Source of the DNA: Pirellulales bacterium
Lineage (GTDB): Bacteria; Planctomycetota; Planctomycetia; Pirellulales; PALSA-1355
Length of the DNA: 64,000 nt
Assembly: GCA_022844125.1 (NCBI GenBank)
Contig: JALHMI010000015.1
Location: 1 to 64,000, forward strand
Reading direction: 5' to 3'
Both the position numbers and the translations under genes were made by a program. Numbering within the stretch: position 1 is the stretch's first letter; each line of letters starts with the position of its first letter. This document shows positions 55,096 to 64,000 of this stretch, in pieces. The notes beneath the pieces were generated by a model. That model was not told the DNA's origin and ran no database searches. It worked only from the letters and a program-made list of their open reading frames with translations.

Positions 55096-55323
55096 ATGAA
55101 GCGTATTCTGGCGATGTTGTCGCTGGCGGTTCTCTTGGGCTCGACCGGCTGCGGTGCTGATGGTGATCCGATCGGCGCTGGCGTGGGCGATTCCGGCATC
55201 TCGGGCGGCACGGGTGGCGAAGGTTCCGGTCCCACGGGCACCGGCGGCGGCGTCCCCGGTGAAAATCCCGCTGGCGATGTCCTTGACTCCGGCGGCACAG
55301 GTACGGATGCACCCTCATCCTAA
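55096..55323 (+). CDS. Small Gly-rich lipoprotein
   Basis: 75 residues from ATG 55096, GGGAG 8 bases upstream. A signal sequence ends in a lipobox (LLGSTGC, Cys19). The mature part is almost entirely Gly, Ser, Thr, Pro and Asp (GAGVGDSGISGGTGGEGSGP) and should be disordered. The last codons overlap the start of the acyltransferase gene by 17 bases, so the two are translationally coupled. Function unknown; a short spacer-like surface lipoprotein is the only guess the composition allows. Confidence 0.65.
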   Translation: MKRILAMLSLAVLLGSTGCGADGDPIGAGVGDSGISGGTGGEGSGPTGTGGGVPGENPAGDVLDSGGTGTDAPSS

Positions 55324-56686
55324 GCCAGATTCGGAAAGCACGGCGGTTTTGCCGCTTCCGCTCGCGCCGTTCGAGTTGTACTACGACTTCGACGACGGGC
55401 CGGACTATCCCACGACGTTTCCCGTTGAGCTTCGATTCAGCGGGCCGCTGAATCGTGCGTGGTTCGAGCGAGCGCTCGGTGAGACCGTGGCGCGTCATCC
55501 GCTGCTGAGCGCGCGGATTCAGGAATCTGACGAAGGGCCAGGCTGGGTTGCAGGTCCAGAATCGGCGCCGCCGCTTGATTGGAACGATGAGGGCACTCCG
55601 ATACGACCGCCGCAGGGCGACGCCATCGACCTGCGAACCGGTCCGGGACTTCGCACCTGGGTACGCGCTTCTGACGCTGGGGCCCGAGTGGTGTTTCAAG
55701 TGCATCATGCCTGTTGCGACGGGCTGGCCGCGCTCGAGTGCGTCAAAGAAATCCTGGCGCGATATCGGGTGCTGGCGGGTGAGGCCGAAGCCGAGCGGCT
55801 GCTGCGTATGATTGACCCGCAATTGCTGAGCAAGCGTGAGGTGCTGGCGTCTGACCAGCCGCGCAGGCCGTCAGCCTGGTCGGGAATTCGCGATGTCTGG
55901 TACACTCTGAAGGTCTGGAGCTCGATCCTGTGGCTGTCGCCCGAAGTGCTCCAGCCTCCGAAAGGTGGCAAAGCCGAGAGACGCACGCAAGAGTTGCTGG
56001 CGTTTCAGATTAGGGAACTGGCGGCCGATGAGACGACTGCGCTGCACAACCTGGCGGCGGTGCATGGCGCTACCGCAAATGACCTCCTGCTCCGCGATCT
56101 TTTGCTGGTCCTTCGTCGCTGGAACGATCGGCAGGCGGGGCCTCGCAAGGGCCGGCTGCGCATTACGGTGCCGGTCAACGTTCGCATCCGGGCCGATGCC
56201 GCGATGCCGGCGGCCAACCGGATTGGTTATGGATTCGTGACGGCACGCTTGGACGAACGCGATGACCCGGCGGCGGTACTCGCAAAGGTGCGCGAAGGAA
56301 CTCGGCGAATCAAAGACTGGTATCTGGGTCTTTACTTTCTGGGTGGCCTGGCATTTGCGCGGAGGTTTCCCAAAGTGTTCGCCCGAGTCATGCGCGGTGA
56401 GCGGTCGTTCGCCACCGCGGTGCTGAGCAACGTAGGGAGATTCTCGCCCGACAAGGCACTCGCCCCCACGGAGAAATGGCGTTGCGGCGAACTTACCTTG
56501 GAGTGGATTGGCGGCGCGCCGCCACTGCGAAGATTGACGCGCGCGGCGATCATCGTGATCGAATACGCCGGGAGATTGTCGCTCTGCTTGCGCAGCGATC
56601 CCCATTTCTTCGATGAAGCGACCACGCGCGAATTGCTGACGGCACTCGTGGAGCAAGTCCGCGAGTCGATTCGTCGAGGTGCATGA
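55307..56686 (+). CDS. Condensation-type (PapA5/WES-like) acyltransferase
   Basis: 459 residues from ATG 55307 (MHPHPKPDSE). The superfamily active site HHxxxDG is present as HHACCDG (His133, His134, Asp138, Gly139). The second half keeps the supporting Asn/Arg pattern VPVNVRIRADAAMPAANRIGYGF and a late SNVGRFSP, which resembles the DFGW-type latch position of condensation domains. Such enzymes move an acyl group from CoA or a carrier protein to an alcohol or amine, as in wax-ester synthases, PapA5 and chloramphenicol acetyltransferase. No adenylation or carrier domain is attached. Lying head-on with a type I synthase cluster, it could release or esterify its product. The gene is coupled to the small lipoprotein and follows the RND pump. 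Confidence 0.75.
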   Translation: MHPHPKPDSESTAVLPLPLAPFELYYDFDDGPDYPTTFPVELRFSGPLNRAWFERALGETVARHPLLSARIQESDEGPGWVAGPESAPPLDWNDEGTPIRPPQGDAIDLRTGPGLRTWVRASDAGARVVFQVHHACCDGLAALECVKEILARYRVLAGEAEAERLLRMIDPQLLSKREVLASDQPRRPSAWSGIRDVWYTLKVWSSILWLSPEVLQPPKGGKAERRTQELLAFQIRELAADETTALHNLAAVHGATANDLLLRDLLLVLRRWNDRQAGPRKGRLRITVPVNVRIRADAAMPAANRIGYGFVTARLDERDDPAAVLAKVREGTRRIKDWYLGLYFLGGLAFARRFPKVFARVMRGERSFATAVLSNVGRFSPDKALAPTEKWRCGELTLEWIGGAPPLRRLTRAAIIVIEYAGRLSLCLRSDPHFFDEATTRELLTALVEQVRESIRRGA

Positions 56687-56695
56687 AGCCGCCCG

Positions 56696-57460
56696 CTACG
56701 CGTGCACTGCCGCTCCACCATCAACGGTGAGCGTTTCGCCCTGCACCAGGTCGCTCAGCGGGCTTGACAAAAAGAGCACACAGTTGGCGACGTCCTCGGC
56801 GGTCAGGTAGCGATCGCCCATCATGCTCCGCGACGCGCGAGCCGCGAAGAGCTGGTCGGCATACGGAATCCGGCGCGTCGAGTCGGTATCCACGAGCCCT
56901 GCTTTGACGATGTTCAAATTGATGTTCTTGTCGCCGAGTTCCAGGGCGAAGTGCCGGGTGAAACTTTCCAGTGCCGCCTTCGAGCCGCCAACCGCACCGT
57001 ACATGGGCAGGGCCATGTGCGAACCGTGGCTGGAAATGGCAACCACCTTGGCCCGGCCGGATGCCTTCTGCATGAGCCTGAAGCCTGACTGCACAAGATG
57101 GATCAAGGCCATAACGTTGGTCTTCATGGTCATTTCGAAGTTCTTCTGCGTGATTGCGAGCATGGGGCGGAAGCCGCCGGTGGCCGCGTTGCTGACCAGG
57201 ATGTCGAGCTTGCCGAACTTCTCGCCAATGAATTGCATCATCGACTCGCAGTCATCCTTCTCGCTGACGTCGGCCTTCACGACCGCCACGTCTCGACCCA
57301 TTGCCTGGATCACCTCGGCCACTTCTTCTGCCGCGGCGGAACTGGTGACGTAATTCAGGACGATGTCCGCGCCCGCTTCGGCCAGCCGCAGCGCGCAGGC
57401 TTTACCGATGCCGCGCGAGCCGCCAGTTACCAGGGCCGTTTTTCCAGTGAGATCAATCAT
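56696..57460 (-). CDS. SDR-family enoyl-ACP reductase, FabL-like
   Basis: 254 residues. Classical SDR cofactor motif TGGSRGIGKAC (12-22) and NAATG at 91-95. The active site is Tyr154 and Lys161 in MYGAVGGSKAALES: a Tyr-x6-Lys spacing, not the Tyr-x3-Lys of ketoreductases. Tyr-x6-Lys is the mark of the enoyl reductases FabI/FabL/FabV-type; the GGSRGIG cofactor loop and MALPMYGAVGGSKAALE context match FabL of Bacillus (NADPH-specific). It would reduce the enoyl intermediate made by the dehydratase of the adjacent synthase or by the fatty acid cycle. It ends 9 bases from the acyltransferase stop (convergent) and lies 71 bases downstream of the PPTase on the same strand. Confidence 0.82.
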   Translation of the reverse strand: MIDLTGKTALVTGGSRGIGKACALRLAEAGADIVLNYVTSSAAAEEVAEVIQAMGRDVAVVKADVSEKDDCESMMQFIGEKFGKLDILVSNAATGGFRPMLAITQKNFEMTMKTNVMALIHLVQSGFRLMQKASGRAKVVAISSHGSHMALPMYGAVGGSKAALESFTRHFALELGDKNINLNIVKAGLVDTDSTRRIPYADQLFAARASRSMMGDRYLTAEDVANCVLFLSSPLSDLVQGETLTVDGGAAVHA

Positions 57461-57531: not shown

Positions 57532-58296
57532 TTACGCGGCACGCGTTTTCACTTGTGAGTTATGCTGGGCAACGGCCGGACGCGGCGTGGCGACCACCAG
57601 CGCCGCAACGTGACCGTCGACGCGCCAGGTTTGCAGGCACAGCAGTTCTGCGGTCAGGACGTTGCCGGAGTAGCGCGGCGGTCTGCCGGGCACGGCCTCG
57701 ATTGCCGCCGGCTGGAAACCCTCGCCGCGCTGGCAGGCTTTGTAGAACGCCTCCTTGCGGGCCCAAAGCTCCTCGGACGCACTCGTGGCGTCTCGCGCAG
57801 CGGAAATCCACTCGCGTTCCGCAGCCGTGAACGTCCAAGCGACGTGTTGTTTAATCGCGCCCTGTGCCACGACGTCCACTCCGACCGAGGTGGTCGTGGC
57901 ATCGCCGATCGCCACCAGGACCCCCAGATCGGAATGGGCGATCGACAGCGAAAGCGGCTGCTCGACACGTGCGATCGAAAGGACTGGGCGCTCGCCATGA
58001 CCTCGCATCACCGAGCGCGATTCGACAAGAAGTTCCTTCGCTGAACGACCGCCATATCTCGAACCAAGCAGGAGTCGCTTCAGCACGATACGTCCGGCGA
58101 GAAACGTCTGTTGTCGGCTTACCGAACGCATTGCCAGGTACGCAGCTAACTCAGGCTGCGAGAGCCACGCGCGCGCGGCATCCTCGCCGAGCGAGAGCTC
58201 ACGCAGTGCGGCATATCTAGTGTGAACGCTGTTCAACGCGTTATCTCCCCCCGACGCGAACGGTTCGATATCCGTCGACTTGCAAGAGTGGTTCAT
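57532..58296 (-). CDS. Sfp-type 4'-phosphopantetheinyl transferase
   Basis: 254 residues, about the size of Sfp. Attaches phosphopantetheine from CoA to the serine of carrier domains. Motifs: LSLSIAHSDLGVLVAIGD, VGVDVV (the metal-binding Asp) and LWARKEAFYKACQRG with the WxxKEA signature. This start overlaps the end of the synthase gene by 56 bases; a TTG at 58233 just past that stop is an alternative and would leave the motifs intact. The gene order synthase-PPTase fits dedicated activation of the tandem ACPs, comparable to pfaE of polyunsaturated fatty acid synthase clusters. Confidence 0.85.
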   Translation of the reverse strand: MNHSCKSTDIEPFASGGDNALNSVHTRYAALRELSLGEDAARAWLSQPELAAYLAMRSVSRQQTFLAGRIVLKRLLLGSRYGGRSAKELLVESRSVMRGHGERPVLSIARVEQPLSLSIAHSDLGVLVAIGDATTTSVGVDVVAQGAIKQHVAWTFTAAEREWISAARDATSASEELWARKEAFYKACQRGEGFQPAAIEAVPGRPPRYSGNVLTAELLCLQTWRVDGHVAALVVATPRPAVAQHNSQVKTRAA

Positions 58297-61200
58297 CGCC
58301 TTCGCCGAAGAGCGTAAAGTCGAAGCGACTGTACTTCTCGCCGCGCTCGCGGAAGAACAGCCGAATGATGCAGGCCTCGCCTGCCCGCGGCAGCCTGGCG
58401 ATCCGCAGTCGCTCGAACTCGTAGGGCACTTCGATCACGCCGCCAAACTGCATGAACAAGTAGCCGCCGCAAGCCACGACGCAGGCATCGAGCACCGAAA
58501 TCGGGACGGTCCAGCCGTTGCCGCCGCGCTCACCGGCGAGCTCAGCCAGGTCGGGCGCGGTGATCTGCCCCCAACCACCGTCGTATTGATAGGCACAGCC
58601 GGTCAGATAGCGCAGGCCTCGGCCGTGGTACATCAGGCCGTCTTCCGGATACTGGTGCGGAAACCAACCCAGCGGCGGGCGGCCGGGCGGGTCGCAGACG
58701 AGCGGCGAGGTGTCGACGCTGGCCGGAACGAGTCCTTCGACATGCAGGCGGTTGGCGTCGATCAGTCGACCCTTGCGATCCCGTTGTTCGGTGAGCAGCC
58801 GACACTCGAGGCCCCCCTCGACAGGCGCCACTTCGACTCGGGCTTCGAGTGGGCCGCTGGGGAACGACATGCCATTGGTGATTCGTGCGTTGCGGATTTC
58901 CATCACCGTGTCACGGCCAAGCGCACAGCGGGCAGCTTCGGCCAGCGACTCCAAACCAACGACGCCGGGAAGGAACGGCTTCTGCCTCAAGCGATGTTCA
59001 CTCAGAAAGGGATCACGCTCGGGATCGAACTTGATGCGGGCAATGCCCGAAGCGACGGACTTGGGTTGCCAAGCGGCGATCAGCGGACCCAGCGAGGGCT
59101 GCGATTGCTCGGTTGCCTGGGCGGAATCTGCCGAGCCAGCGCCGATCTCCATCTCGAACGGATAGAACTGCCGCTGGAAGAAACCATCGGTGATCAGGAC
59201 TTCGCACTCGGGTGTGCCGGCGCGGAGCTCATCGATCAGGTGGTTGACGCCTTCCTCAGGCGAGATGAAGTCCATCTTGAAGGCGTTCTTGGTGATGCCC
59301 ACGCCATCTGCCAGGAGGGCCATTCCCACGGCATCCCAGGTTTGCCAGTGGAAGCAGACCGTGTGGCACTGCGGCCGTCGGCTGCGGAACCAGCCGCAGA
59401 GTTTGGCCAGCGCGTCGTTCGCCGCGGCATAGTCGCTCAGGCCATTGCCGCCAAAGCGACCACTGAGCGAGCCGAAGCCGACAAAGTATTTAAGAGGATC
59501 GTCGGCAGTGAGCTGCATGAGTGCCAGCGTGCCATCGACCTTGGGGGCGATCGTGGCTTGAAGCTTGTTGCCCACTCCTGTGCCGAAGCGAAAGCTCTTG
59601 GCATAGCCCGCGCCATGCACGATGCCCGAAATCGGTCCATCGGCGGCACGAATGTGTTTCAGTACGCGGTCGACGTCGTCCCAATCGGCAACGTCGGATT
59701 GATGGTAGGTGGCGGTCACGCCTGCAGCGCTGAACTTATCGAGCGATTCCTGGATCTCGCGGTCTTTGCGAACGCGATCCCAGTCGTCGGTGGGCGAGCG
59801 ACCTTCCTGTGTGGCTTTGCGAACAATGTCGGCTTTGATCGACTTGAGCTGCTCGTCCGTGCAGTTGCGCCACGGGGGATCCACTTCCGGCGCGGGACTC
59901 TTGCCCAAGAGGTGCAGCTTGAGGCCGTAGCGCCGGCCGAGTTCGAGTGCCGTGGCGGCGGTGATTCCGCGTGCGCCGCCTGTGACGACCCACACGCCAC
60001 CGCGCGGAAGCTCGCCGAGAGGCAGTTGCTCGACCGGTTCACGCGAGACTTGGACCACGCGTCGCTTGCCACCGCTCCAGGCGACTTCGACCTCCGGAGC
60101 GAGGTTCGCGAGTTCCTGGCAGACAGAATCGGCCAATTGCGTTGCCGGTTCGTCAGCCGGGGCATCGATTACCTTGACGCAGAACCGCTCGTGGTTGTAG
60201 CGACCGTCTTCGACAAAGATGCTCTTCAGCAAGCCCGTGAACGCGCCACCTTCGGGGGCTGGCACGGGACCGGCGAAGCCAAAGTCGCCGCCGAGCGACG
60301 TGAGGGCGACGATCGTTGCCTGGCCTGCTTCGGGCGTCTTGCTGACAAGCTGGTACCAGCGACGGATGACCCAGTAGGGCAGGTAGATGCCGCGCTCGGT
60401 GCGCTGCTGGGCGCTCGCGCGATCGGCGAGTTGCATGGCCTGCGGATCGCGTGCGGTGGCGACGATCAGGCAGCGGCTGGGGTTAGACTCGAGGAGCTTC
60501 TCGAGCTCGGAGCAGGCTGAGGCTGAGTCAGTCGTCGTACCGATCCGATCGACCCGAACGCCACGCGCCGCCAGCGTTTGAGCGAGTGCGTCCGCTCCGA
60601 CGTTATTGCCAAGTAGGATGACGGCCTGTGGGAGCGACTTGCTCTCACCCACGAGTGGTGCGTCGACCATCCGCATCAGCGTGCGATCGGCAATCTGCTT
60701 GACTGCCGACTTCGCCGCCGAGCCGACTGGATTCGCGGAGGCGGTAGCCCCCGTCACCTTTGGTACTATTTGACCCGGAGCGCCGAGCAGGTCGCAGCGC
60801 TTCGCGGTCTCGCGAACGCCGGTCCCATAGTAGCGCTGGTGATACTCCCAGTCGGTAATCATCAGTTCGACGTCGGCCGGCTTCGAGTACAGCTCCCGCA
60901 GTAGATGCTGGATGCCGGTTTGCATCGGCATCAGTCGCAGATTGCTCGCCTTGAGGATCGCTTCGGTGTCGGGACGGGCCGCCATACCCACGCCATCCCA
61001 GGGATGGAAGTGGAAACCGACCGCGTGCACTTCGGGCCGCTGGCTGCGGTACCAGCTTGTGAGCTTGCAAAGCATGTCGCTCGCGGCGGAGTAATCGGTC
61101 TGGCCATTGCTACCGAGCCGACCGCTGATCGAACCGAAGCCCAGAAAGTGCGTGATCGGATCGCTCTGCGTAAGGCTCATCAGGTGATAGGCGCCGAGAG

Positions 61201-64000
61201 CCTTGGAACCGACCGTGGCCCGCACGGACTGCGGAGTCTTCTTCTCATAGCGACACGATTGCTCGATGCCCGCGCCGTGCAGGATGCCACTGATCGGGCC
61301 GTCTTGCCTGCGGACGGCGTCAAGGACTTGGGCCAGCGCTTCACGATTGGAAACGTCGCAGGCGTGATACGTTGCGGCAACACCGGCCGCGGTGAATGCC
61401 CGCAGATTGCGGTCGATCTCGATCGCCTTCTCGACCCGAGCCCAGGCCTCGTTCGGCTTTTGGCCGTTCTTGCGAGCTTCGATGATTACCCGGCCCTTGA
61501 GTGCCGCGGTCTGCTTCTCGTCGAGATCCCGCCAACTCGGATCGATGGCGCCTGCCGGTGTCGTGCCGATCAGGTGCAGCTTCAGGCCGAATCGCTTGGC
61601 CAGCGTCATCCCGCATTCGGCCGTGATGCCGCGCGCGCCGCCGGTCAGAATCCAAACACTGCCGGGCTGGATGCTACTGGTCTCTTTAATCTCCGCGGCG
61701 ACGGGCAGGGCCACTTGCAGGTAGCGCTGGCCGCCAACAAACGAAAGCTCGTAGTCGTTCGAGCCGTGGGCCAGTTCGCGGCAGATGTTGGCGGCTAACT
61801 CGTCAGGCGACTCGTCAGCCGGTGCGTCGATTGCCTTGGCCAGAAAGCCCTTCTGTTCGCGCATGATCTGGTATTCGAGCAGCAGCGACTTCATCAAGCC
61901 CGTGGAGAAGCCCGACTCGGGCGATGCGACGTTCCCCGAAAAGCCCAGATCGCCACCGAGGTTGAGCGCGGCCACTACAGTGCAGTCGCTGATCCGCTTG
62001 GCATCGCCAGCCAGTTGCATCTGCTTCTGGCAGAGAAAATACGGCAGCATCACGCGTTGTTCATAGATCTGCGCGAAGTCCGCAGGATTGAAGCGATCGA
62101 ACTTCGTGTCATCGCGGAGCGCGGTGAGAAACAGATGCGTAAGGGGTTGTTGTTGCCAGAGCGTTTCCAACTCGGCGACTGCAGCTTCGGTCGAGGTCTC
62201 GCGCAGTCGGATGACGGTCGCCCCGCTCGCCGTGATCCGGTTGGCCAGCGCATCAGCCAAGGCGTTGGTTCCTTGAATTGCGACTGCGCCCTTCCAGGTC
62301 GGAAACTCGGCAGGCTGCTTTTCCCAAGGGGTGGGGACGATGCGAAGCACGAACCGCACGCTGTCGGGATCGACCGCGGCCGGATCCTGCAAATCGCGAG
62401 AAGTTGGCGCTTCCGCTTGTATGAGTGGCGCGGACGGTGCGACGAGTTCTGCCGGATCGCCCGCAGGTGCGCTGGGCAGCAGTGCCCCGATGTGGACGCG
62501 CTGGCGAATCGCTCCGCAGTGGATGAGCAGATCGCCGCGGGCGGCATCGACAACCGCCGACAGCTTCAAGGAGCCATTCCCGGGAACTTCGCCCAAAAGT
62601 GCGAGTAACTCGCCGGCGTCTTGCGGTTGCCGACCACTGGCGAGGCGAGCGCGGAGCCAATTGAACCGCGTCAGCGAAGCTTCGGGCACAGCCCGCGATG
62701 ACGCGCCCAGCACGCAGTGATTTGCGGCGATCACGAGGTCGGCCGCGGGTTGCTCGATGTAGTTGCGGCCGTCGTGTTCTGCCGCGGCAAGGCGTCCGGC
62801 CTGCTGATCGCTGAGGCAGGCGGTCCAGCCGCGCGTCGCATGGGCTTGCTGCAAGCCGCGCGAAGCGTGTTCCAGCGAGCCGCTGCGCTGCAGGATGCCA
62901 TCGACGCGGACGGCCATGCTGGAAGCGCTGCCGTTCGTGGTGGCCACGGTATCGACTAGTGTGCCGGTTGAAGCAGCCAGTCCATTGCCATTCAAGCCGA
63001 CCAGGCTGCCGATAATCCCGGTAAAGGTGACAGTAGCGCATGCCCAGCCGTGGTCGGGCTCGCGCACCAGGACGAGCGGCGTGAGCATCTCGGCCAGGGC
63101 AGGGGGCAGCGACAGTTCGCCGGACAGGCCATGCAGGACCTGGGTCTTGCCGCCCGAGGTGTTGACGAGCGCAACCTGGGCGGCACTGGCCGCAAAGTCA
63201 GGCAGCACGGCGAGATTCAGCGCGGCCAGGTTGCCGAGCGGCACTTCGACAGCGTCGGCCAGACCGCGCAGCTCTTCGAGCTGCGCCGGCGTGAAGTAAC
63301 GCTCGGGATTGGTGCGCGCCTCAGCCGGAATGGGCAGTTCACCCCAATCGCCGTCGGTCAGATCAGCGATTCGCCTCAGGAGGCGTCGAATTTCCGTTTT
63401 TTTTTCCGCGCCGTGCTGGAAACCCAGCTCATAGGCGCTGCCGCGAACGTGCAGGACGTCGACCTGGGCTGAGCCAGTGGCGGCGATGCCGGCCGCCGAC
63501 GTCTCGGTGGTCGGGGCGTTCGAGGAGGGGGTGGCCGCCGAAGTCGTTATCGGGGCGCCAGCCTTGGTCGGCGCTTTGGCCAGGAAGTTCACGATGTGCC
63601 GCAGCGTCGGGAAGTCGTCGAGCGTCAGGCCGTCGGTCGGCGTGACGTCGAAGTACTCCTGGAGCTCACCGAACATCTGGGCCTTTTTGATGCTGTCGAT
63701 GCCGAGGTCCGCCTCCAGGTCGGCGTCGAGCTCCACGACTTCGGGCGGATAGCCGGTTTGCTCGACGACAAAGTTCACTAGAAAGGCTTCGAGCTCGCCT
63801 GTATCGACGCCGGCCGTGGGCTGTGTGGCGGCTGCTTGGGCGATGGGCTCCGCTTGCGGAGTGGCTACGCTCGCCGTCGGTGCTGGCGCCGGAGCGGGTG
63901 CCGGTGCTTGGGTTGCGGGCAGAGCTTGTGCAGCCGGTTGCGCCGCACTGGCCGCGGTCGTGACCGGAGCGCCTGCTTTCGTCGGCGCTTTGGCCAGGAA
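58241..64000 (-). CDS. Giant type I polyketide/fatty-acid synthase, C-terminal part (5' end beyond window)
   Basis: An open minus-strand frame of 1919 residues runs from the right edge to a stop at 58241; the apparent GTG start at 63778 lies inside an ACP, so the protein continues upstream. Order seen: end of an ACP and an Ala/Pro-rich linker (63800-64000); a second ACP (about 63815-63590) with LGIDSIKKAQMFGEL, phosphopantetheine Ser at 63692-63694; a C45/Ntn-hydrolase-like domain (63460 to about 62480) opening GSAYELGFQHG; a first ketoreductase with its structural half (62330-60850; TGGARGITAE, YSAASDML); a second ketoreductase (60600-59150; TGGARGITAA, YAAANDALAK); and a dehydratase (59030-58250) with EHRLRQKPFLPG (His-x8-Pro) and SVLDACVVACGG. 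The ACPn-KR-DH order resembles PfaA; KS and AT must lie upstream. Confidence 0.9.
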   Translation of the reverse strand, partial: FLAKAPTKAGAPVTTAASAAQPAAQALPATQAPAPAPAPAPTASVATPQAEPIAQAAATQPTAGVDTGELEAFLVNFVVEQTGYPPEVVELDADLEADLGIDSIKKAQMFGELQEYFDVTPTDGLTLDDFPTLRHIVNFLAKAPTKAGAPITTSAATPSSNAPTTETSAAGIAATGSAQVDVLHVRGSAYELGFQHGAEKKTEIRRLLRRIADLTDGDWGELPIPAEARTNPERYFTPAQLEELRGLADAVEVPLGNLAALNLAVLPDFAASAAQVALVNTSGGKTQVLHGLSGELSLPPALAEMLTPLVLVREPDHGWACATVTFTGIIGSLVGLNGNGLAASTGTLVDTVATTNGSASSMAVRVDGILQRSGSLEHASRGLQQAHATRGWTACLSDQQAGRLAAAEHDGRNYIEQPAADLVIAANHCVLGASSRAVPEASLTRFNWLRARLASGRQPQDAGELLALLGEVPGNGSLKLSAVVDAARGDLLIHCGAIRQRVHIGALLPSAPAGDPAELVAPSAPLIQAEAPTSRDLQDPAAVDPDSVRFVLRIVPTPWEKQPAEFPTWKGAVAIQGTNALADALANRITASGATVIRLRETSTEAAVAELETLWQQQPLTHLFLTALRDDTKFDRFNPADFAQIYEQRVMLPYFLCQKQMQLAGDAKRISDCTVVAALNLGGDLGFSGNVASPESGFSTGLMKSLLLEYQIMREQKGFLAKAIDAPADESPDELAANICRELAHGSNDYELSFVGGQRYLQVALPVAAEIKETSSIQPGSVWILTGGARGITAECGMTLAKRFGLKLHLIGTTPAGAIDPSWRDLDEKQTAALKGRVIIEARKNGQKPNEAWARVEKAIEIDRNLRAFTAAGVAATYHACDVSNREALAQVLDAVRRQDGPISGILHGAGIEQSCRYEKKTPQSVRATVGSKALGAYHLMSLTQSDPITHFLGFGSISGRLGSNGQTDYSAASDMLCKLTSWYRSQRPEVHAVGFHFHPWDGVGMAARPDTEAILKASNLRLMPMQTGIQHLLRELYSKPADVELMITDWEYHQRYYGTGVRETAKRCDLLGAPGQIVPKVTGATASANPVGSAAKSAVKQIADRTLMRMVDAPLVGESKSLPQAVILLGNNVGADALAQTLAARGVRVDRIGTTTDSASACSELEKLLESNPSRCLIVATARDPQAMQLADRASAQQRTERGIYLPYWVIRRWYQLVSKTPEAGQATIVALTSLGGDFGFAGPVPAPEGGAFTGLLKSIFVEDGRYNHERFCVKVIDAPADEPATQLADSVCQELANLAPEVEVAWSGGKRRVVQVSREPVEQLPLGELPRGGVWVVTGGARGITAATALELGRRYGLKLHLLGKSPAPEVDPPWRNCTDEQLKSIKADIVRKATQEGRSPTDDWDRVRKDREIQESLDKFSAAGVTATYHQSDVADWDDVDRVLKHIRAADGPISGIVHGAGYAKSFRFGTGVGNKLQATIAPKVDGTLALMQLTADDPLKYFVGFGSLSGRFGGNGLSDYAAANDALAKLCGWFRSRRPQCHTVCFHWQTWDAVGMALLADGVGITKNAFKMDFISPEEGVNHLIDELRAGTPECEVLITDGFFQRQFYPFEMEIGAGSADSAQATEQSQPSLGPLIAAWQPKSVASGIARIKFDPERDPFLSEHRLRQKPFLPGVVGLESLAEAARCALGRDTVMEIRNARITNGMSFPSGPLEARVEVAPVEGGLECRLLTEQRDRKGRLIDANRLHVEGLVPASVDTSPLVCDPPGRPPLGWFPHQYPEDGLMYHGRGLRYLTGCAYQYDGGWGQITAPDLAELAGERGGNGWTVPISVLDACVVACGGYLFMQFGGVIEVPYEFERLRIARLPRAGEACIIRLFFRERGEKYSRFDFTLFGEGDEPLLQVDGYRTVRVGGR
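63567..63586. repeat. Tandem ACP linker repeat, copy 1
   Basis: The 20-base string GTCGGCGCTTTGGCCAGGAA recurs exactly at 63981-64000, 414 bases (138 codons) away. It encodes the end of an ACP, FLAKAPT. The surrounding linker codons (TKAGAP) are also shared. This marks consecutive ACP units made by internal duplication. Confidence 0.85.
63981..64000. repeat. Tandem ACP linker repeat, copy 2
   Basis: Identical to 63567-63586. It is cut by the window edge; more ACP copies probably follow upstream in the gene. Confidence 0.8.

Follow-up and report, generated by a model that had tools for sequence, protein, structure and literature searches.

A FabL-like SDR as a probable trans-acting enoyl reductase of PfaA-like synthases in planctomycetes

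The locus analyzed here raises the question of which protein, if any, serves as the enoyl reductase (ER) of a PfaA-like synthase that itself carries KR and DH domains. The window, that is, the whole stretch of 64,000 nucleotides under analysis, comprises the first 64 kb of contig C15 in the 6.44-Mb genome of a Pirellulales bacterium (GCA_022844125.1). The genes on its minus strand appear in the order class III aminotransferase, AMP ligase, metallo-beta-lactamase-fold protein (a label given on sequence reading rather than by a profile scan), thioester reductase-SCP2 protein, synthase, 4'-phosphopantetheinyl transferase (PPTase) and an SDR (Table 1). A sequence-only reading of the window had proposed that this SDR is a FabL-type enoyl reductase that completes the reductive cycle of the synthase in trans. 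The PPTase and synthase ORFs overlap at the end of the latter. Relatives of the acyltransferase encoded on the opposite strand (32-52% identity) are found within 5 kb of the reductase gene in two other genomes (G001 and G002); their alignments begin only at about residues 62-64, and the true start is therefore probably near position 55340.

Table 1. Coordinates, strands and identification of the features discussed in the text
Feature	Position in the window	Strand	Basis or remark
WS/DGAT- or PapA-like acyltransferase	55154..56686	+	convergent with the reductase gene
FabL-like SDR, proposed trans-acting enoyl reductase	56696..57460	-	NF005975, 3OIC/3OID sequence and fold matches
4'-phosphopantetheinyl transferase	57532..58296	-	PF01648, 3.6e-9
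Synthase C-terminal half: ACP, C45/AAT-like, KR-like, KR, DH	58241..64000	-	TIGR02813

The synthase runs past the window to contig position 69526, where the additional portion contains KS, CLF, ACP, ACP, AT and ACP, and consists of 3761 aa with the layout KS-CLF-ACP2-AT-ACP2-C45like-KRx2-DH, including four ACPs, two KR-like regions and a second KS that lacks the Cys (AIDAGQSSG). The full protein scores 1024.2 bits against the PfaA family (TIGR02813), above the curated cut-off of 1010.1. Pfam and NCBIfam scans of all 3761 aa detect no ER domain; hence the original observation on the visible half, KR and DH present and ER absent, extends to the whole protein, and the idea of an ER hidden upstream, which had been named as a finding that would overturn the proposal, is rejected. 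In the related synthases from 36 loci, the DH His is conserved without exception (40 of 40 rows), as is the DH Asp (39 of 39), so that enoyl intermediates should arise. Judged by its domains only, this planctomycete synthase family would be expected to make a polyene, since neither an ER within the protein nor a neighboring PfaD was found. At residues ~2028-2311 of the synthase, after the last ACP and before the KRs, there is a C45/AAT-like (penicillin acyltransferase-type) region that scores 78.5 bits, just below the cut-off of 85, appears on reading to lack the usual N-terminal nucleophile Cys, and recurs in related synthases (21 loci, E 1e-5).

The reductase ORF starts with ATG and encodes 254 aa, with N115, S144, Y154 and K161 as the catalytic residues and the motif YGAVGGSK. 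Y154 and K161 correspond in the alignment to the Tyr-Lys pair of Bacillus subtilis FabL (PDB 3OIC/3OID), numbered Y151 and K158 in the available part of a FabL study, which also gives Asn-Ser-Tyr-x6-Lys without an internal Met as the FabL signature (PMC9260719). This signature is present in the window reductase. The Tyr-x3-Lys arrangement of FabG and the classical SDRs is absent; the position four residues before the Lys (K-4), the Tyr site in classical SDRs, is occupied by Val. The N-S-Y-x6-K pattern is retained in 82 of 82 relatives with at least 55% identity (a count over overlapping locus sets rather than independent genomes), and K-4 is occupied by Ile in 75 of them and by Val in 7; the enoyl-reductase spacing noticed in the single sequence is thus not a chance feature. 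Among the 37 phmmer matches that represent SDR loci of the same genome, with one gene pair counted twice and two (L041 and L043) that do not span the motif, the Yx6K Tyr without a Tyr at K-4 is seen only in the reductase and in two FabI-like proteins, L032 and L034.

Profile and structure comparisons point in the same direction. FabL (NF005975) is the top match of the reductase among 235 NCBIfam families, with 267 bits against 190 for the next one, and is likewise the top family for all five clade members scanned; the four besides the window reductase score 252-271 bits. These scores lie below the curated equivalog cut-off of 328, which appears to be a weak test here, given that the FabI of the same genome also falls under the cut-off of its own model (285 versus 391). 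Four stand-alone planctomycete FabLs score 309.5-356 bits, one of them above the FabL cut-off. The best 25 of the 235 families are SDR families, with no PfaD or NMO family among them, and Pfam yields SDR-type matches only. A PDB sequence search places B. subtilis FabL closest (3OIC/3OID, E 2.6e-55; next entry 7.5e-36). An AlphaFold2 model (mean pLDDT 93.2) built on an alignment of 45 sequences has 3OID as its best fold match (TM 0.94, rmsd 1.1-1.2, 42-43% identity), with a small lead in Z, 38.8 for FabL versus 37.3 for the next non-FabL entries. The description of the protein as a classical SDR is thus correct for the fold, whereas the closest match is FabL and not FabG.

Phylogenetic analysis separates the reductase from FabL proper. 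In a tree built after removal of the motif columns, the 22 synthase-linked proteins included fall into a single clade (100/99), and B. subtilis FabL together with 14 stand-alone planctomycete proteins forms another (96/95); the two are neighbors with support of 94/66, which is not secure. One protein, L235, was left out of this tree and put apart from the stand-alone FabL group on account of its Tyr-x5-Lys motif; it was kept in an earlier, quick tree, where 41 synthase-linked rows are monophyletic (98) and their placement relative to FabL and FabG-like SDRs is unsettled. The motif that follows the sheet also differs: SSHG in 36 of 38 synthase-linked rows (the others being SSQG in L187 and SSAG in L197) and, at the same place, SSLG in FabL and all 14 stand-alone rows. 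Because of the separate clade, the insecure join and model scores of 252-271 bits, the protein is here named FabL-like and not FabL. Thus, of the original FabL-type assignment, the proximity to FabL by family, PDB sequence and predicted fold stands, and membership in FabL proper does not: as judged from sequence comparison, the reductase belongs to its own clade beside FabL.

The connection between reductase and synthase extends far beyond the single neighborhood. Among 296 genomes of the order, the reductase is found in 82 (cut-off E 1e-45) and the C-terminal half of the synthase in 44 (cut-off E 1e-100), with both present in 43; the only synthase genome without a reductase at this cut-off is G178. 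In 40 of the 43 pairs, the two genes share a contig, separated by 60-8094 bp (median 1.3 kb), and in the other three they lie on separate fragments of draft assemblies. The co-occurrence is highly significant when relatedness is ignored (Fisher p 1e-27). Although 39 of the 82 reductase genomes have no synthase match at E 1e-100, 19 of the 20 of these that were read encode diverged synthase domains adjoining the gene; the twentieth, on a 3-kb contig, has just a thioester reductase there. In total, 36 clusters were read, comprising that of the window, two others of its family and 33 retrieved in addition. Synthase domains are located beside the reductase in 35, with only a thioester reductase in the remaining one (a 3-kb contig), and no PfaD or NMO match was detected in any of the 36 (E 1e-8).

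A named collection, which overlaps with the unnamed locus set, shows the same pattern. Here 52 loci match the reductase at 60-85% identity, the next locus being at 38%; 51 are labelled planctomycetes, counting Kuenenia, which we take to be one, and a single record is labelled only 'bacterium'. These loci include Rhodopirellula, Stieleria and Pirellulales MAGs, and 43 contain synthase domains, seven a thioester reductase only, and two, on contigs shorter than 5 kb, neither. Synthase domains flank the gene on both sides in four loci (L103, L112, L114 and L129), and in another family of the class all five loci are synthase-linked. Among 28 loci of distant SDRs, none has matches to KR, DH or thioester reductase, and four have KS or AT matches, as expected of fatty acid genes. 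Seven public MAGs labelled Candidatus Kuenenia stuttgartiensis (L108, L111, L113, L116, L119, L122 and L130) carry a Pirellulales-like reductase gene, two of them (L122 and L130) with only a thioester reductase beside it; the taxon labels of these seven records are probably wrong.

The search for another FabI, suggested as a check in the original reading, identified one on contig C10 (L032; TYFGGEKAVPGYNVMGICK), with the motif YNVMGICK and NF005615 as the best family. A second FabI-like SDR is encoded on contig C2 (L034:508-1356; 172 bits, YGYMAPVK), and similar second copies with 33-41% identity are found in several genomes of the order. FabI with at least 50% identity to the C10 protein is present in 28 of the 29 synthase-linked genomes checked, the exception being a draft of 290 contigs (G002). 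With a separate FabI in the genome, there is no need to assign ordinary fatty acid synthesis to the FabL-like gene. The FabV profile (PF12242) has no match in this genome, and its control likewise matched no genome. An NMO search of the same genome gave six matches, none on C15 and two within a fused PfaD-PfaA-like synthase on contig C9. This second PfaA-like synthase (L024:10172-19333 and L025:67-4446; 1250 bits) begins with a fused NMO/FabK-type reductase and is followed by a KS-AT-DH protein that ends in a PPTase domain; a fused pfaDA is described in the accessible part of PMC13291983, so that the C9 fusion represents a known arrangement. Within the order, PfaD is found in 3 of 296 genomes and the reductase in 82, with no overlap, numbers too small for a test of exclusion.

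More diverged FabL-type genes outside the class show a different context. No synthase domain was detected near these genes in the 14 loci read, L235 not counted. Of 26 genomes that carry such a gene, three have a weak FabI match (~110 bits) and 23 have none; in a phylum sample, FabI of the C10 kind (E 1e-45) is found in 0 of 35 such genomes against 15.6 expected, an expectation that presupposes FabI in each of the 40 genomes from the same order and class, as the listing order suggests, and that is uncorrected for relatedness and MAG incompleteness. Only four family codes are represented among the 35 genomes, with incomplete MAGs making up many of them; the number of independent events is therefore small. 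It looks as if FabL replaced FabI in these planctomycetes (L221-L234).

Taken together, these observations make it very probable that the protein acts in trans as the dedicated, NADPH-dependent SDR-type enoyl-thioester reductase of the adjacent PfaA-like iterative synthase; the absence of an ER and the multi-genome linkage both favor the trans-acting partner originally proposed, at the level of sequence evidence. The synthase would condense (KS/CLF, AT), ketoreduce (KR) and dehydrate (DH) the ACP-held chain to a trans-2-enoyl-ACP. The FabL-like protein is then predicted to dock, with hydride transfer from NADPH to C3 and protonation assisted by Tyr154 and Lys161, and the saturated chain would be handed back to enter another round, be it in every cycle or only in some of them. 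Release of the chain, as aldehyde or alcohol, is probably accomplished by the neighboring thioester reductase-SCP2 protein. The enoyl reductase activity, the cofactor, the docking and the product are all predicted from sequence.

Linkage by itself would also be compatible with a role in tailoring or resistance. As a tailoring enzyme, the SDR would act on the finished product by reducing a ketone or some other group, its Tyr having shifted with no switch to enoyl reduction. SDRs are versatile, the remaining sequence and the fold are near those of FabG-like ketoreductases, and the position of the clade beside FabL is insecure; but the Yx6K Tyr, with none at K-4, is invariant in the 82 relatives, FabL is the top family for every clade member scanned, and the synthase already has two KR-like regions and no ER that could be found, which renders this scenario improbable. 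We consider even less plausible that the protein is a self-resistance copy of the fatty-acid enoyl reductase that shields the host from the product of the cluster. Precedents of this kind are suggested by a kalimantacin operon that carries a FabI isoform, according to a title cited in PMC5089993, and by the triclosan resistance linked with B. subtilis FabL in the portion of PMC9260719 available. Such a role, however, would leave the synthase without any ER despite its conserved DH residues, the gene accompanies the synthase almost universally and not sporadically, and the thioester reductase, PPTase and acyltransferase neighbors resemble a lipid synthesis pathway.

It is least likely, and hardly credible, that the gene encodes a housekeeping enoyl-ACP reductase placed beside the synthase by accident. 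Diverged FabL-type genes may fill such a role in other planctomycetes, as the deficit of FabI in the phylum sample indicates, but the FabI of this genome and of nearly all synthase-linked genomes checked, as well as the separation of the synthase-linked clade from the stand-alone one, argue against it here. The housekeeping reading is accordingly rejected.

With the trans-acting enoyl reductase as the preferred reading, a FabL-like lineage was probably recruited to serve a PfaA-like synthase. A broader proposition, towards which we lean with less assurance, is that in the sampled planctomycete class PfaD was replaced by an SDR lineage distinct from FabL proper, in the role of an almost obligatory trans partner to a whole PfaA-like KS-CLF-AT-ACPn-KR-DH synthase family. 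This lineage would represent a further enoyl reductase type, specialized to dock on the tandem ACPs of a megasynthase and to serve type I iterative lipid synthesis. Should the FabL-like protein indeed be the ER, largely saturated or selectively unsaturated products would be expected, and product prediction for these clusters would change accordingly; nature would then also offer an example of a dissociated FAS-II-type SDR acting on a type I synthase, which could be of use in engineering. The combination of Yx6K and SSHG can be considered a marker by which genome miners could find the family.

Among the known systems, PfaD, the trans enoyl reductase of PUFA synthases (TIGR02814), is likewise a stand-alone protein that serves a PfaA-like KS-AT-ACP-KR-DH synthase; it is an NMO/FabK-type flavoprotein with a TIM barrel, unlike the window reductase, which is a Rossmann SDR. 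PUFA-type synthases are described with PfaD in the accessible parts of PMC3098273 and PMC13291983. FabI is also an SDR enoyl reductase with Tyr-x6-Lys, but has a Tyr at the place of the catalytic Ser of the reductase and a Met within the motif, as in the FabI of the same genome (TYFG...YNVMGICK versus SSHG...YGAVGGSK); neither feature is found in the reductase. The cyanobacterial heterocyst glycolipid (hgl) island, likened here by description only, harbors a thioester reductase (HglB) and a PPTase alongside Pfa-like synthase genes. HetN, a protein encoded there, is an SDR. In the available portions of two sources, HetN is placed downstream of hglB (PMC11804610, PMC8064123) and does not act in glycolipid synthesis (PMC8064123), and a figure legend gives the hgl system an ER domain, unlike the system described here (PMC11804610). 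No FabL-type reductase that serves a PKS or PUFA synthase is among the matches listed in a search of open-access titles and abstracts, which leaves its absence from print unproven, and the accessible text of a 2025 review of planctomycete metabolites mentions type III as the only polyketide synthase (PMC12078418). The closest comparison is FabL itself (B. subtilis YgaA, enoyl-ACP reductase III), with which the reductase shares the SDR fold and the Asn-Ser-Tyr-x6-Lys motif with no internal Met. Unlike FabL, the window reductase is linked to a type I synthase, coexists with FabI, belongs to a clade of its own, contains SSHG and scores below the cut-off of the FabL model.
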